A stretch of 40,086 nucleotides of DNA, taken from the IMG/VR virus record IMGVR_UViG_3300025151_000102, positions 1-40,086 of that record. One strand, given 5' to 3'. The notes beneath the pieces were generated by a model, which made no database searches, was not told where the DNA came from, and saw only the letters and a program-made list of their open reading frames with translations. Source of the DNA: a virus. The position numbers were made by a program, and so were the translations under genes. Positions 15,855 to 37,020 of the stretch are shown piece after piece (positions within the stretch are counted from its first letter, which is position 1; every line of letters begins with the position of its first letter).

Positions 15855-16195
15855 TAGCGTACCTCCAGTAAAACATCCACCTTTACTTCATTGGTTGAGT
15901 CCTTTGTGATTGGCATGAATGTAGCACGGTAGGCAGGGGTGTCAAGTGCCGTGTCGCCATGCACCACCAGCTCTTTGATTGATTGAGATGAAGATTGCTG
16001 AGTATCAAATATAGCTGATACAGATAGGGTTCTATCGTCTATCCTTCTCACATTGGGTGTGACTGTAATCTGAGGATTACCTGCCCCCCCGTCTTTACTT
16101 GATGAATCGCCACCCGTTGAACCCAATGTCATCCTTGTAACTAATGTGGAGAGATGGTCGGTAAGAGCTGACTTGAGAGTATCTAACACAGGCAT
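15854..16195 (-). CDS. Small tail protein, hypothetical
   Basis: 113-residue protein with an N-terminal helix (MPVLDTLKSALTDHLSTL) and beta-rich remainder (RMTLGSTGGDSS, NPQITVTPNVRRI, TLSVSAIFDT, EVKVDVLLEVR). The T/S-G rich turn after the first strand resembles small phage tail-tip or fibre-connector proteins with a LGSGT-like start, but no family can be named. It starts at the overlap TAATG with the hub gene, with GGTGA just upstream, and ends as TAATG with the micro-gene. Confidence 0.6.
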   Translation of the reverse strand: MPVLDTLKSALTDHLSTLVTRMTLGSTGGDSSSKDGGAGNPQITVTPNVRRIDDRTLSVSAIFDTQQSSSQSIKELVVHGDTALDTPAYRATFMPITKDSTNEVKVDVLLEVR

Positions 16196-22100: not shown

Positions 22101-24033
22101 CTGTGGGGTTGCCGTTGTTTGTTTGAGTCAATACCGAACCTCTTTCTGCATGGTCGGTTATCCTATGTGCTGAGAATAAGCGTGTTGTACCGCTTGGAAC
22201 AGCTCCAGCGGGGGTGTGGGGGGTCAGACCCTGTTTCGTGCTTAAATCGGGATGCAGAAGCCTTTGTGTGTGGAAAATTAGTGTGCGGTCATGAGTATCA
22301 AACTGAGATGCCTCATTAGAATCCTCAGCTACACCGGGTTTTCGAGGGTCAGGGGCAGTTAATCCACCCAACCCCCAAGTCATGTTTGAATGGGCTTGGA
22401 TGCGGTCATGCCCGCTTCTAACGAATATTTCTCCCGGTATTTCAGATGGGTCTGGAAGCTGAATTGCGAGATTTGGCGTTAATTTGCCGTCTGTTGTTGA
22501 TGGCCCTGTTACTTCTTCTCCCGTAATTGGATCTTCCCTTGTGTTCTGTAGCTTGTAATCCCGAATTACTACACCCCAAGGCGAACCACCGAATAGTGTC
22601 AATATGTTGCCTTGGTCGTCTTTGGTAGTCAAATCATCAAAGACCATATTCTCATTACTTATCTGCAACCCCCTAACTTTGGAAGATGTGTTCAAGGATT
22701 TGGCTGTGAATATGGGTCGAGGGGCGTACCTATCGTTATCATATTTCAGACCTTGAGCTACAAAGTCACCGGAATATGTGGTCACGGATGTTAATTCATC
22801 AGTAGTATGGGCGACTATATTCGTGGATGTGCCTGTTGTTGCCTTGTATCCTTCCTTAGTATGGAGCATATCTCCCGAAGTCATAGGTAGCTTAGTCCCA
22901 TATTCCATATTCGCCATCTTAACTTTGTTAGAACCTGTGGTATCTGAATCAACCTTTGTGATTCCCCTAAGAGATGGTTCTGTTACTGTGTAATCAGGCG
23001 GTGGAATATCGGGCAGGTCGCATGAGTTAAGCCCCTCTATGCTAAATCGAACATATCCATGTCCTGATGAATGAGCTGTTGCTACTGACCCCTTACAATC
23101 GTAATTAGTCGCAGGTAGCCCCATGTTGCCCCCATCCAACGGTTTAGCTAACAGATTCCATGTAGGAACACTTTGCCCCAATCCTTGAATTACTGGGCCA
23201 CCATTAGCTGGCGACCAATAATTGTGATCGCTATCCCAATTCGGGCTTGTAGCCCGTTGTTCCCAAGTAAGCACTATTGTATGCTTCTCCGGCTCACCCG
23301 CAATCTCAAAAGTCGCATCGCTAAGTGTATCGGGATGGCTACTCACTTGAGTAATAGTTGATGATAGGTTTTCTGTAATAGTGAAGTTGGCTTTGCTATC
23401 CTGTCCTGTGACTACATGGCCTAATCGCTTAGGGCCATAGTAATATCCAGATATGTTAGTGTAATTCAAAGTTAGATTTGTATGATTGGAATCGTTGTAA
23501 GTGATTGTTCCTGTTGTAGGTAAATCAGAAGGGAATCCATTTCTGTAAGCTCCGTCAAACCTCAATATCAAATTGCTATCGCTTGTTGTTCTGAACGCAG
23601 ATCCTGTGTATGTCGGCTTCCCCGACATTCTAACATACCTTGCTCGAAGATACCTTGTTCCGTTCTTTGATACCTGTTTTACCCGCCTACTGTTTATTTT
23701 CGCAGCGATAGCTCTTGTTGCTTCTTGGCTTCCTAAGTTGTATGTGAAGCCTGTTCCATTACTGCCCAAATCGGTATTGAGCTGTTTCAAATCAACCACT
23801 ATTACATTGTCAGCTTCAGATGGTGCGGAAGTTGTTGCTAATGGCGTTCTGATAATTACCGTCAGCCCCTGCTTCCAGTTGGTGCTATTAGCACCATACT
23901 GCCAAGTGGTAACATCATCTGCGTATTCAGTATTGGGATAGGTAATGTGCATGGCGAAATAACCGCTTGCCGGATAACCGCCAGCTAATGGTTTGACTAC
24001 TGCGGGGTATAACTGCTTGGTATAACGAGTCAT
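16195..24033 (-). CDS. Giant tail hub / tail-tip protein (2612 aa)
   Basis: Very large virion protein. The C-terminal part (about residues 2330-2530) resembles phage tail hub proteins: IMEAIKNLTQLDGRQLVNE, then SPNEVIVSGDD, later GAVRATDITPGDMINIDLP and a final beta region, the pattern of baseplate hub/tail-associated proteins that cap the tube. The middle (about 1440-1800) has five GxGY-type beta repeats (NGGQGYTSEPT kind). The first 1400 residues are unrecognised, with many short Ser/Thr/Gly loops. ATG 24033 overlaps the previous stop as TAATG with GGCGGTG upstream; an in-frame GTG lies at 24057. Together with the LamG gene upstream it probably forms the cell-contacting tip. No peptidase or lysozyme motif was seen. 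Confidence 0.72.
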   Translation of the reverse strand: MTRYTKQLYPAVVKPLAGGYPASGYFAMHITYPNTEYADDVTTWQYGANSTNWKQGLTVIIRTPLATTSAPSEADNVIVVDLKQLNTDLGSNGTGFTYNLGSQEATRAIAAKINSRRVKQVSKNGTRYLRARYVRMSGKPTYTGSAFRTTSDSNLILRFDGAYRNGFPSDLPTTGTITYNDSNHTNLTLNYTNISGYYYGPKRLGHVVTGQDSKANFTITENLSSTITQVSSHPDTLSDATFEIAGEPEKHTIVLTWEQRATSPNWDSDHNYWSPANGGPVIQGLGQSVPTWNLLAKPLDGGNMGLPATNYDCKGSVATAHSSGHGYVRFSIEGLNSCDLPDIPPPDYTVTEPSLRGITKVDSDTTGSNKVKMANMEYGTKLPMTSGDMLHTKEGYKATTGTSTNIVAHTTDELTSVTTYSGDFVAQGLKYDNDRYAPRPIFTAKSLNTSSKVRGLQISNENMVFDDLTTKDDQGNILTLFGGSPWGVVIRDYKLQNTREDPITGEEVTGPSTTDGKLTPNLAIQLPDPSEIPGEIFVRSGHDRIQAHSNMTWGLGGLTAPDPRKPGVAEDSNEASQFDTHDRTLIFHTQRLLHPDLSTKQGLTPHTPAGAVPSGTTRLFSAHRITDHAERGSVLTQTNNGNPTGNAYPHHRIRFARQGHSFVTPLMHRGTPSAMRRQLHRSHGSSYTLLFEAETEHKHHGFGSGKSSNSTTVFELDTLDTKAQTGYDHSTGSFASDGLPLGEIKGFRLPDVKATYSSVTPRDDLDYLIAPGQEHTKRLGAGHQVRRGALSEDASFSVAGPTKLTLATALSGGTRYNTASEVSINGILLGDYHLGGGSPIPTITYVGSSAYFVTGREEGVAVPRIGTELATVPPLLCHDPEYVNLAARDSGGGGITASNADLALLSASNTGTGAKPDAFLCNWLAEYSHPAFFGTSREHFLTFRYREAGMPRSLNYPPVRGLYLRNHSHASTTAQAENALPIERLYVYQWLQNYGYNGLNAGGHGNTDGLRSANAVLMGHTTVREPHGTIRLLKQYENIRYSRGEGIGDAINPEREGGIISYDVDTDSQTFTKYIAVRDSMVAYDMSRRLPIRAWGIRTASDALDMLAGDPNEGTNTQGVYGKARFDGGIHDSVQKIPNATDHGASWFFDKDYSGVERSTPIGLVLSGHTADATPYSSIVRRSNLPVNSGESPIGIGITLGLESGGMTLPTSMPAGLWDTEYLEAPLKARPHNKGSDPFIDLTQYTGSKSYDQSKSSSAVGETTAFGVTGGFYHLRGNALHTNASAIDHSGMRQLAASNGEKKTHYPTTGWGEATYNSSNNATKTVKAIPLSEIADHRQVQSRTEPRLGLIIDTENERNLNKTVEYQIMGTKATSLNTDLSVGQHFPITPSWVVKTKLEKDAFTLDGGAGSTVTHSNEYVAPTWSPDSDDAKGMGGAAVTALSLTAGGSGYSDGTLTASGGGGSSFAGTYIVNKSVSSLSHSGGSGAYSSSETGGSISVSGGNPTTAFTGTYTTTSDGAAVSSISISSAGSGYNNTNASCGVTGGGGSNFAATYYVGHALSAFDVQGSNALRLIAVPVAPQNMSWRLRINASKSGSDYYPNTSATEAILNLTLNSSGVCTGTTFSGGTGTTGNHFQSNHTYTYTLEYLDGSTWEDHGALNSAWQFGVGYSGATLDTSASSGTVRQIHVTNYGSGYTSNPTITAPLLIGGITLASLSPTLASANRSLSGVSITNAGAGYETAPTLSIPHGTVTASMTSTGSVKSVTITNGGQGYTSEPTIAFSNAGSNATVAVTVGTGTAEEPVVHSNSHALDAWAVRGSADLPAWGGVYVLRKSYLNRTQEGSLSTEIFGTAGKPMTSHPRRKYVDYIVRPVRPLKLFGFASSLLQDGWTHGARCKTTNTDDIAYQPFTRDGRYGLFETDVSQGLGNSSFVGSPEGAFTMDWPDANDYDIAWHLIPTASMLQFFKSDAARKTIDGSFNPEIEPRYSQTLHPGGGEPIYQSQVRYINDGTGISGDFAKHGLEDEVTHISMKSLMRTYPSFVVKSHYTAGSTFLILDDASILPSSGVLFIPGISGKFSYSAKSGNKLTQSGNTITGYTSVGDLEGKVLHYTTVASPSTINDIRSLTLPYPIIPTLTDNTLVIAKLESDSWRRYDTSLDSVKETSLTYRGLLEYDPSDFIMTSQRPLKIANSKNIAELKNISTSIQKIRIDGRELSETFSPPYLFDKNGMRLRVGGVKVENHTTSLIFKNINADTLSDHGLDVENGVLLGQLGYVGIRTSDAALMMLDDAEADVAGYNVTPTSALIANDRDISDTLKAHPSLRIINDHSSTFVARKTRGISIMEAIKNLTQLDGRQLVNERNGGLIYGSSTFKNKGATIGMGSIVKSVGVSRMIDSPNEVIVSGDDLASNEKVFVAIKDPERMRSEAGKGATSNLARVLRQNIPGLKTKQEAMKLAKSILARTENTTPVIEIKGAVRATDITPGDMINIDLPLHGLRGEYAVFESEHNYNQLESNFVVGQYDKGIEGLLSDLQSVSSTNEPTDESASTIVDLVELAVSGAIKVKAVHRISVRSVNNRGFLIGAKEAKGMGKIGVRSGNKRALPIGQSKSIFYVVK
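18716..19700 (-). repeat. GxGY beta repeats inside the hub protein
   Basis: Five segments of the type (T/S)xxGxGYxxxxT, each followed by a Gly/Ala/Thr-rich strand, are spread over about 350 residues. They include GGSGYSDGT, AGSGYNNTN, YGSGYTSNPT, AGAGYETAPT and GGQGYTSEPT. Such units are common as exposed beta modules in virion proteins. Spacing is irregular, with non-repeat sequence between the second and third units. Confidence 0.65.
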
Positions 24034-27000
24034 TACCACACCGCCCTTGAAGCCCACAGCTCACTTACTTCATCATCTGTTAATGGATGATTGAATACTG
24101 CAACATTAGAAAGATAGCAATTGCTTAGGTAATACTCAACCGACTGATCCATACCTGCATGGCCGTTTGAACTGGTAGCGTAAGTGCTTGAGCCTGTTTT
24201 GCCTACATTCATAGGAATATTACTTACAGTACTGTTTGGTGCGCCGTATGTTGCTTGAAACATTCTACCATGAGATTTGTTATTTGCGTCAGAATCATTG
24301 ATGAGGTTCTTTACGGCAGAAAGTCCAATCAAAGTCGTATTAGTCGCAGCAGTTGTTCCTAAAGCTGAAGGTATAGTAGCAGCGGCACTTTGAGCTGGCG
24401 AATAACCAGAATCTGTTGTAGCTCTAAGCCAGTTGTTTATTGAAGCAGTACCGACACCGCCAAGATTTACCTGTGATTGAGTTGTTTTGAAGGGCAAATC
24501 ATTTCCTGTTTTGCTAATTTCTCCATTACCATGACCGGATTTGCCGAACTTAACATACGATTCGTTTGAAAGATATAGTGTAGCGTTGCTTCCTGTTTTA
24601 GTAAATACAACATGAGTCCAAGCATCACGATCCACACGGCAACCAAGCCTCTCAACATCGTGCATAAACAGTATCTTTGTTCCATCAGCTTCACAAGCGG
24701 CCAATGTGAATTGAACATACTGGTCGTTGTTTTCGTTGGTTTCATCGCCACCTGCTAAGAATAGACCCCAAGCTCTACCCCCCGAATCCAAACCAGATAT
24801 TATCGGCCCTGCTGCGGGTTCTCCTGATGCGTCTGCATTATCACATTTGAACCACGCACTAATTGAGAAGTCGCCCCTACAATCAAAATCTTTCATAGGG
24901 CCATACTCAGCTTCAACACCCGAATTGTAATTGTAGGCCGCAACCGCCATTCCATAATCAAATAACAATCCTTTGTCAGTTGTATCCTCCCCATATGCAG
25001 CTCCATTAGTTTGCGTAGATGCTCCTGTGAATGTCAGTCTTAACGGTGAGCCATACAAATCTTCTGTAATTACTGCGTTGCTTTGTGAATATGTTGCAGA
25101 TGAGAATGTATCATTCAATCTCGCATAAAAACGACAGGCATCTGCCATATTGCCCGAACTATCTATTCTGAGCTTATGGTGTATCCCCCTCAATGTGTTT
25201 TCGTTTATCGTATCTTCATTTGTTATGTCTGTAAAATCGAGAACGGCTGAAGCTGTTGATGTTTCGTGTAGGTTTTGAAATCCGCTAAATCCAGTAGGGC
25301 CTTTAGATAGGAAGTGCTTGTAGTCCGATGAGTAATCATTTGCTGTTCCATCGCTTATGTCGAGTACCACACCTGTATGCCCTCCGCCAAAGAATACTAT
25401 TCCATTAGGATCAAGGCGAGGCCACAGTATCTCAACATCTATGTTGTTGATTTCCGTACTTGCATCACCCACATCTTCATAGAAGATTTGATAGAAAGAA
25501 TCCAAATCCTCTCTTGGGTATATTCTTTGAATGTAGAATGAGTTTGTTGATGTTCCAGAACCTACCGATTGACTGATGTATTCAAAATCGGCTAATTGCC
25601 CTTTGACTCGCATTATCCCTTTGTTAGTAGCAGAAGTCAATGCCCCTATCCTCTTCATCCAATCCTCAGTTTTTATGCTAACAGCTAATCCTGAGATATA
25701 TCCTGTTGATACTGCTGATGCTACATCTGCTTGAGGATATACCATCTTGCCATTCCATAGGGTGTAGGTAGCCCCATTAGATACTTGAACAACAGAAGGA
25801 GATGCGACTGTCTTTATCTTGCACACACCACCTAATCCATCGTATGACCTTATGTTGCCCTCAGCATCGTGTATAGAACCGTGTGGTGCGCCTCTAAATG
25901 TGGATATAGGCACATAGGTTTCTCCATCTGATCCTATCGGTAGCGGTGCAGGGAATGAGTTGGGGTGATACGACCTGCTGTTGTTAGCCGATAGCCCACC
26001 ATACCCTACTACCGTAGCTGGTTTGTAGGCATAGGGTGTGTTGTTGTTGATATGTACGCAGAAGTTTCTGCCTGTTGCACCGGGAACGGTGCTGTGTATT
26101 ACGATTGAAACCCCTGCTTCTCCATCCCTGCTCTCAGTATCCTTGCCCCTAAAAGCTCGGACATACCCCATGTGCGTTCCTGTATCTGTATTGGTCGTAG
26201 CAAACAAGGGTGGCGGGTCAAAGGCACTACCACCTTGACTATTCTTAGCTTGAGGATGACCCGCCATGTTAATTCGCCTAATGACTTCTTCAACACATAG
26301 ATTGAAGTCACCCATTTTCACAGCAATATCGTTGAAATCCAGCTCTAATGGCCGAACATAGTCTAATGCAGATCCATCGGATTTCTTGCCTTTTAATGAA
26401 AGGTGGCTACATTTCATTATGACTGGAGGATCGGTATAACGGTCAGCAGATGCCTCTTGAACCTCAGTTATATCCCAATCAAAGGCTTCCATGTTAGGGC
26501 CTTCTTTGATTAGGTATCGAGCTACATTATCAGGGTCTTGTTGTCTTGCAGATGAAGTCTTGCCTAACAGATTACAAGCTGCGGTAGCCATTTCTTCGGC
26601 CAACAATGGTGCTAATTTCGAGAACTCATATCCATCCAATGAGCTTGGAGTACCATGTGCTGAGTTGTAAGCTGTAATTACATCAACCAAATTAGCTATG
26701 AAGTCTGCATTTGTTACTGCGGTTGAGCTGTTGCTACCATCTGCGTTTTGCACATATCCTATGCCAAAGTGTATGTATCCACCCAATGTAGCTACAGAAC
26801 CTGTAAATAGCCCGTTGGGTGTTGTTGAGTCTTGGTCGGCCAATGTTACTGGATGGCGTATGGGGATTCCATTTATTCTCGTTAAGGTGGTAGCGTTGGT
26901 ATATGCAACCTTTACTAATTGACCTAAGCCATCGTTAATCGTAGGGTGGCCTTCACCGATTGTAATCCAAAAAGCAGTATCGCTACAGTATGAGGAATCG

Positions 27001-30000
27001 CCTCTCTCATTAGTGGCTTTAGCGAATGCAGAAGCATCATCCAATGTGAAAACACCATTATTGTAACCCGTAATAACGCCTTGAACCGATGGTCTTTGGC
27101 ATCTTGAAATCCATCTGCCTGTTTCAGCCGTAATGAAATCCCAATACTGGTCTGTAATCTCAATTGAGGCCACATCGTCAGCCATCCCCCAGTCAATAGA
27201 AAACCTGCTTTCGTATGTTTTCATCTGAGGTCTGTTTGTTGCCGTCATGGTGCAATCAATACTCATTTTAGTGGATCTGACTGTGGATAGCGGTGTCCTT
27301 GAATCGTTATCCGAGTTTTCAATTGAATCAACATCGAAAAACATAGAGGGGAATAGCGGTATTTCGGTAATAGCTCTTGTTGAGGCATAATAGGTGGATG
27401 CTTGCTTGTCATTCCTAACTGAGGCATTACCACTACCTACTATTCTGTCCTTCCAACCGGGAAATAGCGGGTGTTCGGTGTATGTGGGTTGAATATCTAT
27501 TCCGCCTTGCCCTAATCCGCCTAAAGTCAAGCTAACTGTCGGTGTTCCTAAATCTCCTATCTCCTTAATCGGAGAACCTTGACTCAAATTGAAATCTCGT
27601 ATTGCCCTGCTATCTGCAATATCCATTAGTATTGAACGCCCCCTCAATACCAATTGAGTAGTACCCATATCGTCAGATATAGGAGCTACTTCTTCGATTC
27701 TTCCTTTCATGAGATTCAATTCAATTATAGCGGTTGATGAATTACTGCCCCCATCCCTTGTAGTCAGTATGTCGTCTAATGTAGCAAATCTGCTTCTCTT
27801 AGCTGGATGGACTAAGACCAAGCTCTCATCTGTTTTGAGATCGTTGTCTATCAAATCAAAGCCTGTTAGATTAGAACGTCTAAATGATGCAGGTGTTTGA
27901 GTTTGGCCTCTATAATCGGTCTGTTTTGACCGTTGTATGTTTTCTATGAATAATGAATGGTATTCCGAGTTGCTTGTGTCATCGGGGGTGTTAGTGCTTG
28001 GAACGGGCTTTGGTCGGCCATATCCTTGAATGCCCGTGCCTACTGTAACTACACAATCTTCGATATTGATGAAAGGAGAGGGTGTTATGTCGCCTGTTGG
28101 TGAAGCTGTTAGTGAATGGCTTGAGAATGTGCCGTTAAATGATGCTGTCGGAACTGAAATTAGCCCGCCCGGAGCTGTAATCTTGAACAGTATGTCTTTG
28201 TGATTAGCAGGTGTGCTTGAAAATGGCTTTCTAAGCCATTCTGAGAGCGACTTAGAGCCAAAGTATGCACTACCGCAGGGAACGGTCTTACGCACGACCA
28301 AATAACCTGTATTCCCTATTGCATGATAGTCGGTAAGCTTGGTGTTAATCCCACTTCTAAGGTTGAACCCTGTTCCAGCTACTACTTCTCCCGTCAAATC
28401 TATTGCATCATAATAAACCAACACTTTCGAAGGGCCACCTGCACTAACAAGTGCGGCTGGTGATTTGATAACTGCAATCCGAGCTTCCTTCTCAGGGGTT
28501 AGGTGTCGGATGTATGCGTCATTGGTGGGAACGCCATTGGATAATTGAGCTGTATGATCTGTATCTAAGCCCTTTAGCATAAATGGCCTAACATCTTCAA
28601 CCGCCAAAGCGACTATTTCATCACGGGTGGATGCAGAAAAGCTGTTTGTATCGTATGCCCCTACCCCTGATTCCGTAATTATCCTATTGAAGGGAACGCT
28701 ACTTGCATCTGTAGCTAATACTGATGATGATGTGTTAATGACTCTTGTAATTCCACCAGAATATACATTCTCAGTAACTTTGACTATATCGTTTTGTCCG
28801 ATTATAGAGCCAATAGACATATCATCGCTAATATATTCAAACGAGTTAGCAATTCCTTGAACGGTCTGCTTCACCGTCTGCTCATCGGGCTGTGGTAATT
28901 TTTTGAGGAAGAAATCACCATCAACCAATGTGTATGATGTTACACCACCCATAGCTGGATATGTATCAGCAGGGTCAGCTAACACAGTAGCACTATTTGA
29001 TGAAAGTGTTCGGCTTTTTGGTGATATAAAATATGCGTCATTGTCAAAACCAGTGCTATCTGAGAATCTTTGATTCTGAGTAAATGTGTATTTTGTGAAT
29101 GTGTCCTTTGCCCTTGTTTTCTGACCGCCTACGCTCGCATGGGTATTCTCATTACCTTGATCTATCAATACATCGGATTTTCCTAATACAAACCATACAA
29201 GTGCATCCGTGCTTGGTGGGAACAATGGCTTTTGAGTTTCGGGGAGATTATCAACGCCATTATTCTGCTCATCATTAGCCAAATGAATAGATGTGTAGCT
29301 CAATTTACTATTTACAAAATCTATTGCAGTAATCCTAACTCTCTCTGGGACTATTGACATGGGATTCATATCAACCGCAGTAGCTGAAGCTGTCGCTACA
29401 TCATCAGCCCATCTTATCATCTTGCTTGCCGGACTGGTGCAAAGACCAGTTAGTGGGTGTGTTCCAGAATGGTTGATTATTGCATTTAATGAAGTTGAGG
29501 CAACACCGCTAAAGTATTCTGCATCGGTCAAGCTTAATGTTCCCGAAGCATACCACGTTTGATTCTTAATGTCCTTCAAATCAACGCCTGTGATGTAAGA
29601 TGCTAACTTTTCTAATGCGGTATAACGATCCACACTTGCATTGGGATTAGCTGGATAATCACGAATCTTGAATGTAGTACCGCTATCGCCTGTGAATGTA
29701 TGTCCTACTGCTACCATAGGCAAAGGCATCAAACCATCATGAGTATCCGGCCCATCTCTCCCTTGATTCGTAACAGCTGCACGGGCATTGTCAAAGAAGT
29801 AAATATCGGGCATTTCAAAATCATCTTCAAATAACCACAGTCCAAGTGTGGTGTCGTTGTTGGTCAATGGTTCTAATTTAGGGTCTGTAATCCCTCGATT
29901 CAATCTTATTGACTCTATTATCCCCCTAAACTCTCCACCTTGACCACCTATAAACAAGTCAGAAGATTTCTCAGCTACTAACGGTTTTTCACCTGCAAGG

Positions 30001-30533
30001 TTTTGTTCAGCAACGAGATCGCCATTGATATAACAGCGAATGAACTGCCTTGTGAATTGAGCTGTGAGCATCACCAATGGTTGTTCTCCAAGAGTAAGGT
30101 CGTGTGGCTTATGCTCACCACCACTATATGTTCCTGAATTGCTTTGAGTAGCTACAGGCACATTGTATGTGGTTTCTAAGCGGTATGTGCGTTCATCCGT
30201 AGTCACATCAAAAACCATCGGCCCAGAAGAAAAGGGATTTCCATAGGTTAGCTTGAACTGACCGGGTTTTTCGAGAACAACACCGCCATAATCTGGGATG
30301 ATACACGCATCAATGGTAAATGCACCTCTAATCGTGTTCAATGGATTGGAAATTGAAGGTTCATGCAATCTACCTATTCTTGGTGCATCGCTCTTAGGCG
30401 ATTTTGCGGTTGCGGCAAATGCAGGGTGTCTTAGATCTATACCCGATTCACGGAACTTGCCTGTCGGCACGACCAATCCATCAGTTAGGCCATTTAGCCT
30501 AACGGCTTTACCATGATAACGAATCAAACCCAT
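24033..30533 (-). CDS. Giant LamG-domain tail protein (2166 aa)
   Basis: Large virion protein with a concanavalin A/LamG-like domain at each end: near residues 60-240 (FTIDACIIPDYGGVVLEKPG ... RCYINGDLVAEQNL ... LFIGGQGGEFRGIIESIRL) and near 1850-2166 (DFSISAWFKCD ... DAWTHVVFTKTGSNATLYL ... VAVFNHPLTDDEVSELW). LamG domains bind sugars or surface proteins, so attachment to host surface glycans is a plausible role. The centre (about 250-1800) is unrecognised and shows no enzyme motif. ATG 30533 begins just after the stop of the upstream gene (TGAGATG); the open frame to 30560 has no better start. Its end overlaps the hub start as TAATG, suggesting the two are made in fixed ratio. Confidence 0.72.
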   Translation of the reverse strand: MGLIRYHGKAVRLNGLTDGLVVPTGKFRESGIDLRHPAFAATAKSPKSDAPRIGRLHEPSISNPLNTIRGAFTIDACIIPDYGGVVLEKPGQFKLTYGNPFSSGPMVFDVTTDERTYRLETTYNVPVATQSNSGTYSGGEHKPHDLTLGEQPLVMLTAQFTRQFIRCYINGDLVAEQNLAGEKPLVAEKSSDLFIGGQGGEFRGIIESIRLNRGITDPKLEPLTNNDTTLGLWLFEDDFEMPDIYFFDNARAAVTNQGRDGPDTHDGLMPLPMVAVGHTFTGDSGTTFKIRDYPANPNASVDRYTALEKLASYITGVDLKDIKNQTWYASGTLSLTDAEYFSGVASTSLNAIINHSGTHPLTGLCTSPASKMIRWADDVATASATAVDMNPMSIVPERVRITAIDFVNSKLSYTSIHLANDEQNNGVDNLPETQKPLFPPSTDALVWFVLGKSDVLIDQGNENTHASVGGQKTRAKDTFTKYTFTQNQRFSDSTGFDNDAYFISPKSRTLSSNSATVLADPADTYPAMGGVTSYTLVDGDFFLKKLPQPDEQTVKQTVQGIANSFEYISDDMSIGSIIGQNDIVKVTENVYSGGITRVINTSSSVLATDASSVPFNRIITESGVGAYDTNSFSASTRDEIVALAVEDVRPFMLKGLDTDHTAQLSNGVPTNDAYIRHLTPEKEARIAVIKSPAALVSAGGPSKVLVYYDAIDLTGEVVAGTGFNLRSGINTKLTDYHAIGNTGYLVVRKTVPCGSAYFGSKSLSEWLRKPFSSTPANHKDILFKITAPGGLISVPTASFNGTFSSHSLTASPTGDITPSPFINIEDCVVTVGTGIQGYGRPKPVPSTNTPDDTSNSEYHSLFIENIQRSKQTDYRGQTQTPASFRRSNLTGFDLIDNDLKTDESLVLVHPAKRSRFATLDDILTTRDGGSNSSTAIIELNLMKGRIEEVAPISDDMGTTQLVLRGRSILMDIADSRAIRDFNLSQGSPIKEIGDLGTPTVSLTLGGLGQGGIDIQPTYTEHPLFPGWKDRIVGSGNASVRNDKQASTYYASTRAITEIPLFPSMFFDVDSIENSDNDSRTPLSTVRSTKMSIDCTMTATNRPQMKTYESRFSIDWGMADDVASIEITDQYWDFITAETGRWISRCQRPSVQGVITGYNNGVFTLDDASAFAKATNERGDSSYCSDTAFWITIGEGHPTINDGLGQLVKVAYTNATTLTRINGIPIRHPVTLADQDSTTPNGLFTGSVATLGGYIHFGIGYVQNADGSNSSTAVTNADFIANLVDVITAYNSAHGTPSSLDGYEFSKLAPLLAEEMATAACNLLGKTSSARQQDPDNVARYLIKEGPNMEAFDWDITEVQEASADRYTDPPVIMKCSHLSLKGKKSDGSALDYVRPLELDFNDIAVKMGDFNLCVEEVIRRINMAGHPQAKNSQGGSAFDPPPLFATTNTDTGTHMGYVRAFRGKDTESRDGEAGVSIVIHSTVPGATGRNFCVHINNNTPYAYKPATVVGYGGLSANNSRSYHPNSFPAPLPIGSDGETYVPISTFRGAPHGSIHDAEGNIRSYDGLGGVCKIKTVASPSVVQVSNGATYTLWNGKMVYPQADVASAVSTGYISGLAVSIKTEDWMKRIGALTSATNKGIMRVKGQLADFEYISQSVGSGTSTNSFYIQRIYPREDLDSFYQIFYEDVGDASTEINNIDVEILWPRLDPNGIVFFGGGHTGVVLDISDGTANDYSSDYKHFLSKGPTGFSGFQNLHETSTASAVLDFTDITNEDTINENTLRGIHHKLRIDSSGNMADACRFYARLNDTFSSATYSQSNAVITEDLYGSPLRLTFTGASTQTNGAAYGEDTTDKGLLFDYGMAVAAYNYNSGVEAEYGPMKDFDCRGDFSISAWFKCDNADASGEPAAGPIISGLDSGGRAWGLFLAGGDETNENNDQYVQFTLAACEADGTKILFMHDVERLGCRVDRDAWTHVVFTKTGSNATLYLSNESYVKFGKSGHGNGEISKTGNDLPFKTTQSQVNLGGVGTASINNWLRATTDSGYSPAQSAAATIPSALGTTAATNTTLIGLSAVKNLINDSDANNKSHGRMFQATYGAPNSTVSNIPMNVGKTGSSTYATSSNGHAGMDQSVEYYLSNCYLSNVAVFNHPLTDDEVSELWASRAVW

Positions 30534-30534
30534 C

Positions 30535-31818
30535 TCAAATACCGACCAATTGCTCAACAACAGCCAAGCTCAATTCATAACTCCAAAATCCATCGCCAGC
30601 TTCGTATGAAGGATTCCAAGTCAGAAGAGTACAAGGTAATGCGACACCTTGTTCCAAATATGGGTTAGGTCGCACTTTTTCGTTATTTACAATTGACACG
30701 GGGTCAAACTCTCTTGTGTTTTGTGAAGCAGAATAATTTGTTCCCGGCCCTGCGGGTACTACGAATTGCCTCAATACTTCTTGGCCTGTGCTTGAACTTG
30801 CTATTGACTCATAAGGAACTCGAACACCTACGATATACTTCTTCACTACATCAGCATCTTCAATTTGTAGGAATCTTGATGCGTCAAAGGATGCAACACT
30901 ATCGGGCAAATCAATTACATCTCCTGTTAGTGTATTTGGAGAGAGTAAAGCACCACCCGCAGACATATTAGCAAGATTCAGTAATTCTTGCACCTTATCG
31001 CCCATCGTCATTTTATTGGAATTAACACCACCAGTCATATTGCTAACATAAAACGCCTTATCCCATTTAGCTCTTGAACCATCAACCAAAGCGTATGTAT
31101 TACTGCCCGCATTTACGCCTTTCTGCACAGTAACTGCAACATCTCCACCCGATCCTACTGATTTGTTTTTGATTAGAATCTGTTCGCCATTATACACGGT
31201 GCTTATGTCGCCTGTTTGGTGGTAATATGAATTATTCATTTGTTGGCCTTTGGCTTGAGATATGGAAAAGGCCGTTGTAAAGGCGGTTGTTGCACCATCA
31301 ATGGTTATATTTGCAGAATTGAGAGCATTCACAATAGTAGTGGCGAGAGAGTCAGATGTGGTTGTTGAGCTGATATTTACACCGATTATACTATCTGCGA
31401 CACTTGATGTTGTAGTGCCGTTGGCGAGTCGTATAGCAGTAGTTTCGCCTAAACCTGCATCAAGTTGCCCCTTTGACTTGAATGAAATCTCAACACCATC
31501 TAAATCCGCTTTTACTGTGTTCCATGAACCTGCTGATGTTGAATACTGCCCATACCATGTTGAGCTGGGGATTGTTCCTGAAGCTTGAGATAGGTCTATG
31601 GTAAAAGCTGATCCTGTTCCCAATACTTCGCTGTCATCATCAGTAACTATGCCCCCTATTGATATACCAACATCTGTAAGATTGGTATCTATGGCGAAAC
31701 GCTGACCTAAGAAAGGAATAGGTGCTACTGTCGTTCCTCGTTTCAAATCAAAGGTGATGGTATTTGCATCTAACTCAATGATTGAGCTATCCCTTCTAAT
31801 AAGTTGTATTTTCGGCAT
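30535..31818 (-). CDS. Tail protein downstream of tape measure (distal-tail candidate)
   Basis: 427-residue protein. The N-terminus (MPKIQLIRRDSSIIELDANTITFDLKRG) and the C-terminus (PCTLLTWNPSYEAGDGFWSYELSLAVVEQLVGI) look like the conserved beta core of tail-tip proteins, with a long Thr/Ser-rich insert between about residues 70 and 260. By position, directly after the tape measure and before the giant tip proteins, it matches the distal tail protein that joins tube to baseplate. The start ATG follows the tape measure stop by two bases and has GGGGTG upstream. The family assignment rests on order, not on a named motif. Confidence 0.6.
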   Translation of the reverse strand: MPKIQLIRRDSSIIELDANTITFDLKRGTTVAPIPFLGQRFAIDTNLTDVGISIGGIVTDDDSEVLGTGSAFTIDLSQASGTIPSSTWYGQYSTSAGSWNTVKADLDGVEISFKSKGQLDAGLGETTAIRLANGTTTSSVADSIIGVNISSTTTSDSLATTIVNALNSANITIDGATTAFTTAFSISQAKGQQMNNSYYHQTGDISTVYNGEQILIKNKSVGSGGDVAVTVQKGVNAGSNTYALVDGSRAKWDKAFYVSNMTGGVNSNKMTMGDKVQELLNLANMSAGGALLSPNTLTGDVIDLPDSVASFDASRFLQIEDADVVKKYIVGVRVPYESIASSSTGQEVLRQFVVPAGPGTNYSASQNTREFDPVSIVNNEKVRPNPYLEQGVALPCTLLTWNPSYEAGDGFWSYELSLAVVEQLVGI

Positions 31819-31820
31819 TA

Positions 31821-33659
31821 TCAGACACCCCTTGTAAAGCCCATTCCTCTTGACCTATTTCTGAATGTGCGTTGAACCTCTTGACTGACGGCCTTAGCTA
31901 TTTCCTTAGCATTACCACCGCCCTTCACAGCAATATTGACTGTGATGTTATCTCCACCGCCACCACCCATGCCTTTGACGGTTACAGGAATCGTTCTACC
32001 ATCTGGAAGAGGAACTACCGCTTCTGTTCCGTGTAATGCAACGGGGTATCCGCTTGTCGGCCCTCTTGATATACCTCCAGACGACCAAGGTGTTAGACTA
32101 CCTAAGAAATCACCTGCCGAATCAGCAATACCGCCCAATGATATTGAATCAATTGCATCAAGCAATTCATTGATTGGATCCATAACAAAACCGATAGCAT
32201 CAGATATTGGGTCTGCTATCGCATCGTAAATTGAATTACCAATACCAAGTAATGAATCTACAAACCAATTAAATGGTGCTAAAATCATTTCACCGATTGG
32301 AGAAACATAATCCAACAAATCACCAAATAAGCCTGTTACATAACCAATAGCGTTTGAGAAAGGGGTAGCTATCGCATTGTATATTGATTCACCCAATCCC
32401 CATAATACACCTGCAACCCAAATAAACGGTGCTGCAATCATTCTTCCAATTGGTGTAAGTAATTCAACCACTTGATTAAATGCGTATATGAATGGTGCAA
32501 GAATAGCTTCTCCAATGTTGAGGAATATAGTAATTAGTGAAGAAAGTAAATCACCAGCTATACCTAACACCGTAGTAATTATCCCCATGAGTATTCCCGG
32601 TATAGCACTCCAATTACCCGTAAAGATAGCCATCCATACATCTGCAATACCACCTAATACTGCAAAGGCGATGCGGAATGCGGCTACTACTATCGCAATT
32701 GCACCTGCAATTAGATTGATGATAATTCTTACCACACTAACAATGCCAACCGCAAGTGGCCCTAAGAAAAATGCAAGAACTTTCGCAGTTAGGACTAATA
32801 TTTCTCCTACTACGATCACAAAGGGCGGTAAGACCGCACCTATCCAACCAATTAAATCCGCAAAGAATAGCAACAAACCGCTATTTATCAAGAAATCAAC
32901 AAAACCACCAAAGATTGTTGATACGGCTGCAAACACCGTATCAAAGTTTATACCAAACGCATTCAATATTTCTCCAATGTATCCGAATACCAACAATACT
33001 GCGGTCAAAATACCTGAATAACCGTCAATAATCGTTTGAAACGCCCCTGTTTCTTCCATATATGCAAATAATTTAGCGAACTCTCCAATTACCATAGCAA
33101 TCACATTGAATGCAAAAACATAGAATTGCATTATTAGCGATATAAGACCCATGATTGCCACTTTAGCTACATTCACCAAAGGCGACCAATCTAATCCAAG
33201 AATTGTAGCTCCTATTTCTTGAAGATGACCAATAACTTCCAATATAGAATCCTTTATGCTTTCAAATGCCGCAAAGAACTCAGGAAATGCGGCTGTAGCC
33301 CCAGCTATTGATCCTGTAAATAACACAAGAGCTGTTGATACTAAAGCAAATATGCCAACAAGGAATAAAATTGACATTTTCATGGCTTGAAGCGTTTTTG
33401 TTAATGGGCTTAATGCGTCATCCAATGCTTCAACAGATTCAGTCATATCATCAACGGTCTTATCTGTGTCTGTAAATGCCTCAGCTAACAGAATAAGATA
33501 CTGCTTTGCTTTCATAAATATATCAGTTACAGGGCCTAATGTCGTGTTCAACGCTTTGTATTTTAATGCGGCCACTTGAGCTTCTTTACTTGATTTCTTC
33601 ATTCCAACCATAGCGTTGGCTAATCCGCTTAATCCGGCTGTAAAATCACCTGCCGCCAT
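31821..33659 (-). CDS. Tail tape measure protein
   Basis: 612-residue protein with the features of a tape measure: alanine/lysine-rich start, several long hydrophobic segments (about residues 95-135, 165-205, 215-345, 350-385), and a C-terminal part with GGISRGPTSGYPVALHG, EAVVPLPDGRTIPV and a glycine-rich DNITVNIAVKG stretch that is common near the ends of tape measure proteins. These proteins set tail length and pass into the host membrane during DNA entry. At about 1.5 angstrom per residue it would give a tail near 90 nm. It follows the chaperone genes, overlapping the frameshift product by 14 bp. Two 51-residue repeats lie near residues 403-504. Length and hydrophobicity suggest a long non-contractile tail, but no sheath gene search is possible here. 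Confidence 0.85.
   Translation of the reverse strand: MAAGDFTAGLSGLANAMVGMKKSSKEAQVAALKYKALNTTLGPVTDIFMKAKQYLILLAEAFTDTDKTVDDMTESVEALDDALSPLTKTLQAMKMSILFLVGIFALVSTALVLFTGSIAGATAAFPEFFAAFESIKDSILEVIGHLQEIGATILGLDWSPLVNVAKVAIMGLISLIMQFYVFAFNVIAMVIGEFAKLFAYMEETGAFQTIIDGYSGILTAVLLVFGYIGEILNAFGINFDTVFAAVSTIFGGFVDFLINSGLLLFFADLIGWIGAVLPPFVIVVGEILVLTAKVLAFFLGPLAVGIVSVVRIIINLIAGAIAIVVAAFRIAFAVLGGIADVWMAIFTGNWSAIPGILMGIITTVLGIAGDLLSSLITIFLNIGEAILAPFIYAFNQVVELLTPIGRMIAAPFIWVAGVLWGLGESIYNAIATPFSNAIGYVTGLFGDLLDYVSPIGEMILAPFNWFVDSLLGIGNSIYDAIADPISDAIGFVMDPINELLDAIDSISLGGIADSAGDFLGSLTPWSSGGISRGPTSGYPVALHGTEAVVPLPDGRTIPVTVKGMGGGGGDNITVNIAVKGGGNAKEIAKAVSQEVQRTFRNRSRGMGFTRGV
32150..32453 (-). repeat. Tandem 51-residue repeat in the tape measure protein
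   Basis: Residues 403-453 and 454-504 of the tape measure align along their length: PIGRMIAAPFIWVAG against PIGEMILAPFNWFVD, then GLGESIYNAIATPFSNAIGY against GIGNSIYDAIADPISDAIGF. Spacing is 153 bp. A shorter third trace precedes them (EAILAPFIYAFNQVVELLTP). Tail length could change by gain or loss of such units. Confidence 0.7.
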
Positions 33660-34020
33660 CCCCTTCCCCTCTCATGTCAGCATTGACACGTTCAAAGAAA
33701 TCTTCCAGCTCCCCCGCATCACTGGTAGTCCGTATAACACGCCCGCCTTTATTGTTACCTTTGTTATACTGCCGTTGTTGCTCTTTACGTTGTTTTTCTA
33801 AGGCTTCTGCCTGTTTTTCTTGCGACACTTGAACGAACATATAATCGAGCATAACACGATCATACGGTTGATTATCCCATGAATGAGGTGGGCAATTGAA
33901 ATGCGTTCCGAGAACAAATCTAATCGTTTGAAAAGTCAAGGCGTTTGTTTGTTCCTTGCTGAAAGGATTGACCTTCCCTTCACTATCAATATACTTCTTC
34001 AAGTTAGGGAAGGTTATTCC
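33646..34020 (-). CDS. Tail assembly chaperone, downstream part made by -1 frameshift
   Basis: This frame continues the chaperone protein after a predicted -1 shift at CCCTTTG. It reads GITFPNLKKYIDSEGK, then ALTFQTIRFVLGTHFNCPP, a charged segment (EALEKQRKEQQRQ) and an acidic end, in all 124 residues. The frame has no ATG and no ribosome binding site at the possible TTG start (34002), and it stays open with protein-like sequence through the overlap, so independent start is unlikely. The fusion with the upstream frame would be about 238 residues. As with gpG and gpGT of lambda, the two products probably coat the tape measure and bring tail tube subunits. It overlaps the tape measure start by 14 bp. 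Confidence 0.72.
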   Translation of the reverse strand, partial: GITFPNLKKYIDSEGKVNPFSKEQTNALTFQTIRFVLGTHFNCPPHSWDNQPYDRVMLDYMFVQVSQEKQAEALEKQRKEQQRQYNKGNNKGGRVIRTTSDAGELEDFFERVNADMRGEGDGGR

Positions 34021-34361
34021 AAAGGGGCTGTGTCGCCACCCATGCTTTCCATCAATTTAGTAAGACTGGGCAATACGGCCTGTAACTTTGAACCGACTTC
34101 GGGTTTTAGCTTATTCAAATCTGACTTTTTGATTTGAGGTTCGGTTCTTACCACGCACTTATTGAGAACATATTTCCAATAGCCACCAAAATCCAATTGG
34201 GGGTTAATATCATCTCCATCCATATTGAACTCAACGAACTTAGTGAGAGCTTCTTGTTGCTCAATCCAAGATAATGGCTTAATCCAAACCTCAAGGTTGC
34301 CCTCATCGGTTTCTATCGTATGATGGTCTGGATCACTACTGATTATGAAACGATTACTCAA
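34014..34361 (-). CDS. Tail assembly chaperone, upstream frame
   Basis: 115-residue soluble protein with the position and size of the first tail assembly chaperone. It has a beta-rich start (FIISSDPDHHTIETDEGNLEVWIKPLSW) followed by helices (EQQEALTKFVEFN; YWKYVLNKCV; SDLNKLKPEVGSKLQ). The start is TTG 34361 with GGTGAT four bases upstream, overlapping the stop of the SAP gene. The last codons contain a slippery heptamer, so some ribosomes are expected to read on into the next frame. Normal termination at 34014 should produce the more abundant short form. Confidence 0.75.
   Translation of the reverse strand: MSNRFIISSDPDHHTIETDEGNLEVWIKPLSWIEQQEALTKFVEFNMDGDDINPQLDFGGYWKYVLNKCVVRTEPQIKKSDLNKLKPEVGSKLQAVLPSLTKLMESMGGDTAPLE
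34020..34026 (-). promoter_or_regulatory. Programmed -1 frameshift site CCCTTTG
   Basis: On the - strand the seven bases C CCT TTG fit the X XXY YYZ slippery pattern in the zero frame of the upstream chaperone gene. Slipping back one base gives CCC TTT and continues in the frame of the downstream chaperone part. The zero-frame stop TAA follows one codon later (34014-34016). Location directly before the tape measure gene is where tail chaperone frameshifts occur in tailed phages. I did not establish a stimulatory hairpin or pseudoknot downstream. Confidence 0.7.
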
Positions 34362-34749
34362 TCATATCACCTTCTGACTCGCCTTCAACCGCTACTTCAT
34401 CAGACTCCCCCGAATCTTCCGTAGCTTCTCCTACTACAACCGCAACACCGTTAGGGTTGGATGCCTCCCAAGCCCTAAGCCGAGCAATTAAGTCGGCCTT
34501 GTTACCATAAATCGGCTCTCCCCTTTCTGTTAGGAGAACTCTCAAATCTACTACTGTTAATTCCTCATAGTTATCAGATACTTCAGCCACTACTTCTTCA
34601 GCTTCAGCATCAACAAGAGCTACAAGCCCACTTACGGCCAAACCAGACGGACTCAAGCCACCCGCAGATGTAATCCCTCCTTCTCCATCAATAGTCCAAT
34701 CAACAAGGTGGCTTGAACCACCAACAATTACCGTTCCGTGTATCCTCAT
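34354..34749 (-). CDS. SAP-domain protein in tail cassette
   Basis: 131-residue protein with a beta-rich start (MRIHGTVIVGGSSHLVDWTIDG), a hydrophobic/acidic linker, and a SAP-like helix-turn-helix near residues 65-95 (LTVVDLRVLLTERGEPIYGNKADLIARLRAWE), followed by a very acidic tail (EDSGESDEVAVEGESEGD). SAP motifs bind DNA in cellular proteins; in tail cassettes they are found in small proteins beside chaperones, where their partner is unclear. AGGTGATACA directly before ATG 34749 is one of the best ribosome binding sites of the window. Its stop overlaps the chaperone start. Confidence 0.72.
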   Translation of the reverse strand: MRIHGTVIVGGSSHLVDWTIDGEGGITSAGGLSPSGLAVSGLVALVDAEAEEVVAEVSDNYEELTVVDLRVLLTERGEPIYGNKADLIARLRAWEASNPNGVAVVVGEATEDSGESDEVAVEGESEGDMIE

Positions 34750-34788: not shown

Positions 34789-36990
34789 TCATAGTATGAA
34801 GTAAGGCGAGCTTTCTGTTATCTTCATGTGCCTTACCAGTATCTCCACATCAGCCATAACTGGTGATTTATCAGACGGAACTTGGTGTTCCGATTTAGTA
34901 ATCGTATAATCCTCTAAGGTAATAGTTGCTGTTTCTCTTGTTGCATTACTTCCAACCTTAGTCATAGTGATTGTAATGTCGTTTGTATTCTTGTGATGCC
35001 TTCTGGTTCGCAATTCATCCCAAAGCCTTTCATCTTCAACCATTACTTGCATAGAGAAGCTGTATTCTCTCTTGCCCTCAGTAATCTCAAGAGGGAGCTG
35101 TGTTGCACCGTGTTGGATCTGATCGTTATCAACGGTAGTGCCTTCGTATCCTCGAATAAACCATCGTGATTCTAAGTTGTTAGTTACAGATAGACTGAAC
35201 TGTGTTCCTCTAAGGACTGGTCTGCCGAACACTTCAACATTCACATCTTGGAATAGATATGGTTTCTCACCATCTACTGCAATACCTGATATTTTCCTAT
35301 TTACCGCAGATTCAGCAGTATTGTCAAACATCCTGTGAGGTTTCATTGTGTTTGTTGTAGCCGTGTAGTGCCTTGCAGCTTCATAACTTAGGTTTAGTTT
35401 GACTTCACCCTCAGAATCAGCATCAATAGAAGCTTCTGTTGCTTTGCACCCACTATACAAACGAAGCAATTGCTTTGAATCCACATCTGCGTCTTTCTGC
35501 CTAAAGGATTGCTCAACCGTGAATGAAGGTAATACATTGTGTCCGAACAAAGTATGAGTCACACCAAATTGTAGCTCTTTTGATGTTGCATCTATGTGTG
35601 GGCTTCCTCTTTGATTGCTCGTTCCGGTGTATTGTAGCCTCTCAACCCCACAGGATGTAGATGTGTGGTCAAATGTTAGCGGTTCTTCCACATAGATATA
35701 ATCGGCATCATTACCGTTAGATGTGCCTATTGCTATAACTCTTCTAAGCTCATTCTTGAATATCTGACGATCCGTTTCAGCTGCATCTTGCCCCGGTATG
35801 GTGTGCTTGTCTTTGTCTATGATTTGCACATAGCTTGTTCCGGCTGAGAACTTAGCGGCATTGGCTGAACCGACTTTGATTCTAATATCGCCCGCAGATA
35901 TGTTAGCAGTAACGCCACCTAACAGATAAACCGCTTTATCGTCAGTCTGCGCCCTCGCCAAAGCTCCAGAGTCTATATCTGCACAGGTACTCAAAACCGC
36001 CCCCGAAGCTGAACCGTAGGATCCATATAGAACAGCACCCGTAGCCGAGAGAACCTTGAAGATTCCACCCGTTGTAAGGGCGTTTTCAAATGTGGTTGCT
36101 ATTGCAGTATCGAATGTAATGTCCGTGCCTGTATCTGCTGCAACCATTCCGCCTAATAGGAAATTACCCGTCAGGCTATTTCCTGTCATAGTAAGAGCCG
36201 AACTATTTGTTGCGGTAATTGAATTATCTGTATTGTCTGAAACGCCATATCCTTGAGCTGCAAGAGTAGCGGTAACTGAACCTGTTGCGATATTTAGTGG
36301 GAAGCCACCTATCGCTGTCCCTGCTACCGAGCTGTATGCAAACTCACCTTGACTCTTGGCCGAATGACCGCCCAGTGCGTATTTCATCCACCTTAGAGTA
36401 TGTGCATTTAGTTGCATAGAACCGCCCGATAGGGTTTCTCTACCGCTTGTTAGGATATTTACATCTCTTCCAAGACCAACAATGTGCTGTTGCCTAACAT
36501 CAATTTCTGGTTCGGGTATTGCGAACTCATTCAACAGGCCGATGAACTGATCCGTCTTTACCTGCTGATTAGTGGTGGTCATAGATGTTTCAAAGGTGGG
36601 GCAACGATAGAAATCAATTACCAAGTTATCGTCATCTTTAGTCGCTGTTCCGGCAGCCGTCAATAAAGCTGGCTGAACAGTAATCGTACCTGCTCCGGTA
36701 TCGCTTGCAGTAATGTAGTATGTTCTCTTGGTGGATGCAAAGTCATCTGCGGAGTAAGCATCTCCGCCTTCAATCCTCAATGTGCAACCAATTAGTATGT
36801 TATCGGGCAATTTCAAATCAGGGCCTGTTGTAGTCCAGTATTCGTCAGCACCCAATGTCAAAAGACTGGTATTCCCTGATACTGAGGTATGAACCCAATT
36901 AGCTTGAGATGTTTTTCCATCAATTCTAAGTCCGGTTTCTTTGCCGAAGGATACTTCCGCTAAGTCACCTTTGTAAAGCGTGTTCGCCAT
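34789..36990 (-). CDS. Major tail protein (tail tube) candidate, enlarged
   Basis: 733-residue protein placed before the chaperones and tape measure, where the tail tube protein is coded. It starts MANTLYKGDLAEVSFGKETG, like many tube proteins, and has beta sandwich-like stretches (FETSMTTTNQQVKTDQFIGL; EIDVRQQHIVGLGRDVNIL; the C-terminal REYSFSMQVMVEDERLWDEL and VMADVEILVRHMKI). It is much longer than common tube proteins (200-450 residues); the region about 215-420 is Thr/Ala/Gly-rich and looks like an inserted decoration domain. ATG 36990 is preferred though it lacks a ribosome binding site; an in-frame TTG at 37017 has none either. Two stops in a row (TGATGA) end the gene. Confidence 0.68.
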   Translation of the reverse strand: MANTLYKGDLAEVSFGKETGLRIDGKTSQANWVHTSVSGNTSLLTLGADEYWTTTGPDLKLPDNILIGCTLRIEGGDAYSADDFASTKRTYYITASDTGAGTITVQPALLTAAGTATKDDDNLVIDFYRCPTFETSMTTTNQQVKTDQFIGLLNEFAIPEPEIDVRQQHIVGLGRDVNILTSGRETLSGGSMQLNAHTLRWMKYALGGHSAKSQGEFAYSSVAGTAIGGFPLNIATGSVTATLAAQGYGVSDNTDNSITATNSSALTMTGNSLTGNFLLGGMVAADTGTDITFDTAIATTFENALTTGGIFKVLSATGAVLYGSYGSASGAVLSTCADIDSGALARAQTDDKAVYLLGGVTANISAGDIRIKVGSANAAKFSAGTSYVQIIDKDKHTIPGQDAAETDRQIFKNELRRVIAIGTSNGNDADYIYVEEPLTFDHTSTSCGVERLQYTGTSNQRGSPHIDATSKELQFGVTHTLFGHNVLPSFTVEQSFRQKDADVDSKQLLRLYSGCKATEASIDADSEGEVKLNLSYEAARHYTATTNTMKPHRMFDNTAESAVNRKISGIAVDGEKPYLFQDVNVEVFGRPVLRGTQFSLSVTNNLESRWFIRGYEGTTVDNDQIQHGATQLPLEITEGKREYSFSMQVMVEDERLWDELRTRRHHKNTNDITITMTKVGSNATRETATITLEDYTITKSEHQVPSDKSPVMADVEILVRHMKITESSPYFIL

Positions 36991-37020
36991 GGCTATCAAA
37001 TAGACTACGAAGGACAATCG

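Follow-up and report, generated by a model that had tools for sequence, protein, structure and literature searches.

Reading frames at the tail assembly chaperone locus

The viral record IMGVR_UViG_3300025151_000102, which was analyzed over its whole length of 40,086 bases (in the following, the window; G+C content 43.5%), features two overlapping reading frames upstream of a tape measure protein gene on its minus strand. The first frame, G, encodes a predicted tail assembly chaperone of 115 amino acids, and the second, T, lies in the -1 frame relative to G. Comparative sequence evidence indicates with high confidence that both frames are linked by programmed -1 ribosomal frameshifting, which would allow a single mRNA to give rise to two tail assembly chaperones, a strategy found in many tailed phages and exemplified by the G/GT system of phage lambda. 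The genes follow each other on the minus strand in the order 742-amino-acid open reading frame (ORF), 131-amino-acid ORF, G, T and tape measure gene; the features are as follows:

34014..34361, minus strand: G-like tail assembly chaperone, zero frame, 115 amino acids, TTG start and TAA stop
34020..34026, minus strand: putative slippery heptamer CCCTTTG, in phase C_CCT_TTG, recognized from the sequence and from conservation in homologues
33646..34019, minus strand: T-like extension, -1 frame, 124 amino acids after the slip plus stop, conserved as protein from the slip
complement(join(33646..34020,34020..34361)), minus strand: predicted G-T fusion of 114 + 124 = 238 residues, based on frames and conservation
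33971..34014, minus strand: predicted stimulatory hairpin, based on folding energy and z-score
31821..33659, minus strand: tape measure protein gene, recognized by matches to more than one tape measure family in PHROG (lowest E 6.3e-11)
34354..34749, minus strand: small ORF of 131 amino acids upstream of G, taken from the ORF list, overlapping the G start by 8 nucleotides (nt)
34789-37017, minus strand: ORF of 742 amino acids, gene upstream of G, without informative PHROG match

The 3' end of G reads ...GAC ACA GCC CCT TTG GAA TAA, the single codon GAA separating the heptamer from the stop. The initial annotation of this locus had placed C-CCT-TTG one codon before the G stop and had described the location as lying just before the tape measure gene, and both statements were confirmed (heptamer at 34026-34020, minus strand; tape measure gene directly downstream of T, with 14 nt shared between the two). 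Between position 34056 and a stop ending at 33646, the -1 frame is open, thus overlapping G by 43 nt. The first -1 codon after the slip would be GGA, re-reading base 34020, and the predicted fusion agrees with the product of about 238 residues proposed previously.

The chance of finding some in-phase X_XXY_YYZ heptamer within the 43-nt overlap is approximately 6%, judged from composition alone, and such a heptamer is present in 101 out of the 7138 45-nt coding pieces of the window. The heptamer of a lone genome is therefore only suggestive, and the case rests on its conservation among relatives.

Concerning the encoded proteins, G matched the PHROG family phrog_25860 (tail assembly chaperone, E 3.3e-4). 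Its AlphaFold2 model (predicted local distance difference test, pLDDT, of 79) yielded five matches at E 0.001 or better in a Foldseek search of the predicted viral models in BFVD, including models labeled as tail assembly chaperones of Haloarcula hispanica tailed virus 2 (E 1.6e-5) and of Bacillus phages. On the level of predicted models, these matches point to a tail assembly chaperone fold for G, agreement with solved structures being weak. The tape measure protein of the window matched 10 phage records, with no more than 28% of its length covered and with bacteria as the hosts in every case, and the 131-amino-acid ORF matched phrog_33594, a family of unknown function, weakly (E 6.9e-4).

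Elsewhere on the minus strand, two adjacent very large ORFs of 2620 and 2175 amino acids occupy positions 16195-30560. A second frame event considered between them, at 24033-24057, was rejected, as it represents an ordinary stop-start overlap (TAATG) and no frameshift.

Conservation of the heptamer and of both frames

Relatives were gathered by seven scans of IMG/VR viral contigs, resulting in 165 loci with a G match (window included), many of which were repeat fetches of the same contigs. Merging of identical 120-nt junctions left 49 distinct junctions, window included, which formed 38 clusters at 90% amino-acid identity with a median pairwise identity of 48%. Relatives in cellular genomes were not found in two scans, and a tblastn search of 50,697 phage records (E 0.01) revealed no G relatives among annotated phages.

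The heptamer CCCTTTG was present in 48 out of the 49 distinct junctions, its start lying exactly 10 nt upstream of the G stop in each of them. The sole exception, L175, carries CCCTTTA at the same place, keeping the leucine and the XXXYYY part and differing in the last base only; it is the most divergent sequence, with 36% identity to the query, the lowest among the matches of its scan. The test proposed by the initial annotation, conservation of the heptamer in the presence of variable flanking codons, thus came out in favor of it, and loss of the heptamer in close relatives, which had been named as evidence to the contrary, was not observed. A second in-phase heptamer, TTTGGGN, was discarded as a conserved slip site, being present in only 18 of the 49 junctions.

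Codon usage at the slip site was found to be frozen, with CCT in 38 of 38 cluster representatives and TTG in 37 of 38 (TTA once). In other near-invariant columns of G, the same 38 clusters use four codons in each of the proline columns and six codons in the leucine column. Likewise, among the invariant G columns of a set of 30 sequences, codons were unvarying only at two tryptophans, which have a single codon, and at the two slip codons. Since the slip codons are frozen while other proline and leucine columns vary synonymously, the conservation concerns the nucleotides and not the protein alone.

Conservation of the heptamer merely via the amino acids of both frames would be conceivable, because proline and leucine are invariant in G at the slip and the -1 frame reads PFG there. 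However, the Pro-Phe of the -1 frame would be translated only if ribosomes had shifted 5' of the heptamer, and in 24 out of the 49 junctions a -1 stop located at most 6 nt 5' of the heptamer leaves no more than two codons for such an earlier shift. Under a tandem slip, neither CCC nor TTT is read as a codon, and their conservation is best explained by the slip itself. Constraint by amino acids alone was accordingly given almost no weight.

In the window as well as in all of the 26 first loci, T occupies the -1 frame relative to G. An open -1 frame of 72 to 128 codons is present in all 49 junctions, the lowest value (L042) being due to a contig end. Protein conservation of T begins approximately at the slip site, and identity from the slip onward amounts to 47-53% for 14 out of 15 aligned relatives and to 98% for the remaining one. 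The initial annotation had described the -1 frame as protein-like across the overlap, which holds from the slip site onward; upstream of the heptamer, the frame is non-coding, as seen from the nearby stops in 24 of the 49 junctions and the onset of protein conservation around the slip.

Transcriptional slippage, a sequencing error or a decayed gene could each yield adjacent frames as well. However, the arrangement is identical in 49 distinct junctions, and both frames are conserved as protein. Moreover, the longest homopolymers at the slip site of the window comprise only four C and three T, and runs of this length are too short for slippage of RNA polymerase. An apparent frame change of such origin can be considered extremely improbable.

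Predicted downstream hairpin, start codons and the proposed frameshift model

In the window, a hairpin with a 9-bp stem (ACCTTCCCT/AGGGAAGGT, arms at 34014-34006 and 33979-33971) is predicted behind a 5-nt spacer from the heptamer, with a folding energy of -15.9 kcal/mol and a z-score of -3.44 against dinucleotide shuffles. For the relatives, 48 nt beginning at slip+12 were folded and compared with synonymous-codon controls, resulting in a mean z of -1.85 over the 38 clusters, 22 of which were below -2. In five other 48-nt windows of T, mean values ranged between -0.55 and +0.23, with 1 to 6 of 36-38 clusters below -2. The downstream hairpin suggested as a check by the initial annotation is therefore predicted in the window and in over half of the clusters; it is common but not universal, and its presence in all relatives was rejected.

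The first 30 sequences were additionally split by eye, without a tree and after viewing folds and alignment, into groups of 13, 13 and 4, which showed mean z values at slip+12 of -2.98, -0.6 and -2.05, respectively; these groups are not independent of the folds, whereas the figure for all clusters is. The weak-fold group comprises L009, L010, L014, L017, L018, L020, L021, L023, L024, L025, L042, L047 and L048, all of which keep the heptamer; only L020 and L023 feature a strong downstream fold. Within a subset of seven sequences sharing the stem register, drawn from their group of 13 and not including the window, an 8-bp stem forms in 96.4% of cells, and three stem pairs are changed on both sides. 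Shuffling of this subset reached the observed values in 1 out of 500 cases and the count of further pair types in 19 out of 500. By inspection, the stem register is shifted by one in the window and in L002, and four other sequences show a shift by two, with stems that are bulged or less stable. For all 13 sequences of that group, RNAalifold yielded -4.64 kcal/mol and three pairs with double changes.

Several observations weigh against programmed frameshifting as read here. The last base of CCCTTTG is G, which lies outside the heptamer consensus quoted in the available part of PMC8211752, where Z may be any base but G; a survey of annotated phage frameshifts, as far as its accessible text goes, sets no such limits on the heptamer (PMC10274946). 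Regarding the hairpin, 16 out of the 38 clusters are not below z -2, the most divergent sequence reaches +1.39 at slip+12, and in the second group of 13, averaging only -0.6 over the 48 nt, 11 sequences are not below -2. The double changes in the stem come from two of the seven sequences, which had been picked for their shared register. An internal Shine-Dalgarno-like stimulator (GGTGG, approximately 7-11 nt upstream) was dismissed, since its pairing does not exceed what the encoded amino acids already impose (mean -8.5 kcal/mol vs. -8.1 kcal/mol for synonymous recoding in 30 sequences). On the protein side, the G model obtained no significant Foldseek match in the PDB. A second look revealed 3klu (YqbN, Z 6.2), 5ir0 (a PICI-like element protein, Z 5.3) and 2ob9 (the HK97 tail assembly chaperone, Z 3.7), values that, taken by themselves, could reflect a common arrangement. 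The T model is helical and of low confidence (pLDDT 70; predicted template modeling score, pTM, 0.41), and it gave no significant structural match.

The start codons belong to the same side of the balance in part, because T might represent a separate gene, either with a start of its own (in the window, TTG 34002) or with reinitiation once translation of G has terminated, and overlapping genes of phages are commonly coupled in translation. In 18 out of the 49 junctions, window included, a TTG at codon 8 after the slip is the first start-like codon of T; L048 has an ATG at this codon, and in six junctions an ATG at codon 12 comes first. Fair anti-Shine-Dalgarno pairing (-5.6 to -5.9 kcal/mol) ahead of the first start-like codon was obtained for L020, L024, L042 and L047 among the 30 sequences tested. 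However, codon 8 is not kept, being TTG in only 19 of the 49 junctions, ATG in one and otherwise CTG, TTA, CTT, GTT and others, and conserved residues precede the candidate start. Within or 5' of the heptamer, the -1 frame contains no ATG, GTG or TTG in any of the 49 junctions, 16 of them lack a start-like codon for at least 20 codons after the slip, and in L017 none occurs for 61 codons, though T is conserved from its first residue. In the window, where TTG 34002 is the first start-like codon and the first ATG follows only 58 codons in, pairing before the TTG is nil (+2.6 kcal/mol). Furthermore, a separate T leaves the frozen CCT TTG codons unexplained. A conserved separate start of T is absent across the homologues, in agreement with the initial annotation, which had found neither an ATG nor a ribosome binding site for T and had regarded such a start in homologues as an argument against recoding. 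Independent translation as the explanation of this junction is thus very unlikely, while a minor separate T product may occur in some relatives.

For programmed -1 frameshifting, the following course of events is proposed. Most ribosomes would read G through to the TAA, producing the 115-residue chaperone, whereas a minority would pause while CCU is occupied by Pro-tRNA and UUG by Leu-tRNA. The hairpin located 5 nt downstream would help the slip, and the nearby stop may do so too. Both tRNAs would then move back in tandem, Pro-tRNA from CCU to CCC and Leu-tRNA from UUG to UUU, after which T would be read, giving the 238-residue fusion with the junction ...Thr-Ala-Pro-Leu-Gly-Ile-Thr.... A Pro-tRNA with a GGG anticodon would gain P-site pairing on slipping from CCU to CCC. 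By analogy to lambda, we infer that G would coat the tape measure protein and that the T part of the fusion would recruit tail-tube subunits.

Host lineage and relation to known recoding systems

The presumption of an archaeal virus, made in the initial annotation from the window only, is well supported by gene content. A group II chaperonin above the thermosome alpha cut-off was detected in 11 out of 23 records (the window plus 22 relatives), including an 80-kb near relative, whose G and T are 90% and 98% identical to those of the window; the window itself has no thermosome gene. The same cut-off was exceeded by 4 out of 14 control genomes, a set that holds four archaea. The chaperonins of two records passed the thermosome alpha and beta models of NCBIfam (alpha scores of 632 and 536 bits), but did not reach the cut-off of TIGR02339, a subfamily model, and fell far short of those for GroEL. 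These scores contradict the PHROG label groEL, which was therefore rejected for the chaperonin of the relatives. For one chaperonin, the best natural solved relatives were the thermosome subunits of entry 1a6d, which we take to be the thermosome from Thermoplasma. Thermosome genes are located, for example, at L104:1079-2722 and L100:13764-15368. Such virus genes represent a useful host marker and possibly a folding helper during infection.

The major capsid protein of the near relative matched nine phage-collection records representing six viruses, all of them of archaea (HVTV-1, HVTV-2, HCTV-1, HCTV-5, HCTV-16 and a Methanofastidiosa virus). Its prohead protease matched 385 records, with the best matches in the haloviruses HVTV/HCTV and most of the records being bacterial phages, and its 1137-amino-acid protein had no match in the phage records. 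tRNA genes as host markers were found neither in the window nor in 11 pieces of two relatives. As further members of the gene repertoire, the window encodes an ERCC4-domain nuclease with a helix-hairpin-helix domain (9521-10228, plus strand), a type common in archaea and eukaryotes. The relative G001 (L097-L101) carries DpdA (deoxypurine-in-DNA protein A) as well as several DNA methyltransferases, which suggests DNA modification against restriction.

Regarding the lineage, the records of the relatives reach 108 kb, and MCM helicase and family B polymerase were each detected in none of 14 records, which may be fragments. Since Aoguangviridae (Magrovirales) possess their own replisome with both proteins, according to the available part of PMC10768690, membership in this family was rejected. 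Similar to the present records, the Satyavativiridae (Adrikavirales), viruses of Poseidoniales, are large (87 kb) and tailed, with replication possibly carried out by host machinery, and their capsid phylogeny resembles that of Druskaviridae (PMC13108676). The capsid proteins of Druskaviridae are in turn described, in the accessible text of PMC8651126, as sitting inside a clade dominated by marine archaeal-virus sequences. A marine host of the Thermoplasmatota, such as Poseidoniales, is a reasonable assumption for the viruses studied here.

The lambda heptamer is reportedly G_GGA_AAG, in contrast to C_CCU_UUG in the present lineage, where the heptamer begins 10 nt upstream of the stop at each of the 49 junctions and is accompanied by a predicted hairpin in over half of the clusters. 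Like lambda G/GT, whose frameshift is described as part of a tail module in which the tape measure protein is the partner, the locus would give two chaperone products from overlapping frames, with ribosomes slipping back by one base shortly before G ends (PMC5009743, available in part). Of the features expected of a G/GT arrangement, overlap of the frames, a T in the -1 frame without a conserved start of its own, a conserved in-phase heptamer and a position directly upstream of the tape measure gene were found, as was a chaperone fold of G among predicted models. At the place expected for a major tail (tube) protein gene, upstream of G, the 742-amino-acid ORF showed no informative PHROG match.

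The closest archaeal counterparts are the haloarchaeal Druskaviridae HVTV-1, HCTV-1 and HCTV-5. Recoding by -1 at this junction was already predicted for the haloarchaeal viruses HVTV-1, HCTV-1, -2 and -5 (PMC5009743, as above), and the records of HVTV-1, HCTV-1 and HCTV-5 are annotated with a two-piece -1 join upstream of the tape measure gene. They share archaeal hosts and the same join architecture with the present viruses, and their capsid proteins are 33-34% identical to that of the near relative. In contrast, their heptamers are GGGAAAG (HVTV-1), GGGAAAC (HCTV-1) and GGGAAAG (HCTV-5), each located 34 nt before the stop, and HCTV-1 features two ORFs between T and the tape measure gene. 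Against a database of these three sequences, the G profile matched G of HVTV-1/HCTV-5 weakly over the full length (13.9 bits) and had no significant match to that of HCTV-1.

Among cellular genes, fucA1 of the archaeon Saccharolobus solfataricus likewise combines a heptamer with a putative stem-loop, in this case A_AAA_AAT with a frameshift efficiency of approximately 10% in vitro and with the split gene reported in two strains (PMC8211752, in the part available). The sequence CCCUUUG/T was predicted as slippery, with a downstream pseudoknot, in West Nile virus WARF4, where it is present in about 5% of the WARF4 genomes (PMC3574045, partial text). This case concerns a minor variant of a eukaryotic RNA virus with unrelated genes, and no kinship is claimed. 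In the literature searched, which was covered in part, no description of C_CCU_UUG in tail chaperones or archaea was found; likewise, nothing was found on frameshifting in connection with Poseidoniales, and the only mention of magroviruses together with frameshifting was a reference title. The available part of a review on archaeal recoding lists one demonstrated cellular -1 case and a few cases from haloarchaeal viruses (PMC8211752). The statement of the initial annotation that few archaeal cases are described consequently stands as to their thin documentation, but has to be amended by the earlier predictions for haloarchaeal viruses.

The mechanism is thus of a known kind and not the first to be predicted in archaeal viruses. 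New are the lineage, the occurrence of CCCTTTG in tail chaperones, as far as the literature searched is concerned, and how deeply it is conserved. This depth also distinguishes the locus from the known cases, as do the heptamer, its constant distance of one codon from the stop and the frequent hairpin. With noticeably more reserve than for frameshifting as such, we tend to regard these viruses as a large archaeal lineage carrying a complete canonical -1 signal, i.e., heptamer, short spacer, covarying hairpin and nearby stop, in which C_CCU_UUG has been frozen over deep divergence, presumably due to the tRNAs of the archaeal hosts.

As a practical consequence, annotation of the tail module in these viruses would be corrected, T being otherwise missed or given a false start. 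If true, programmed -1 frameshifting in Archaea would have its strongest comparative example in this locus, which would lend itself readily to studies of the archaeal mechanism. Archaeal recoding is thinly documented, and since heptamer, spacing and hairpin can be read here across dozens of lineages, an archaeal -1 signal would become open to dissection by reporters.

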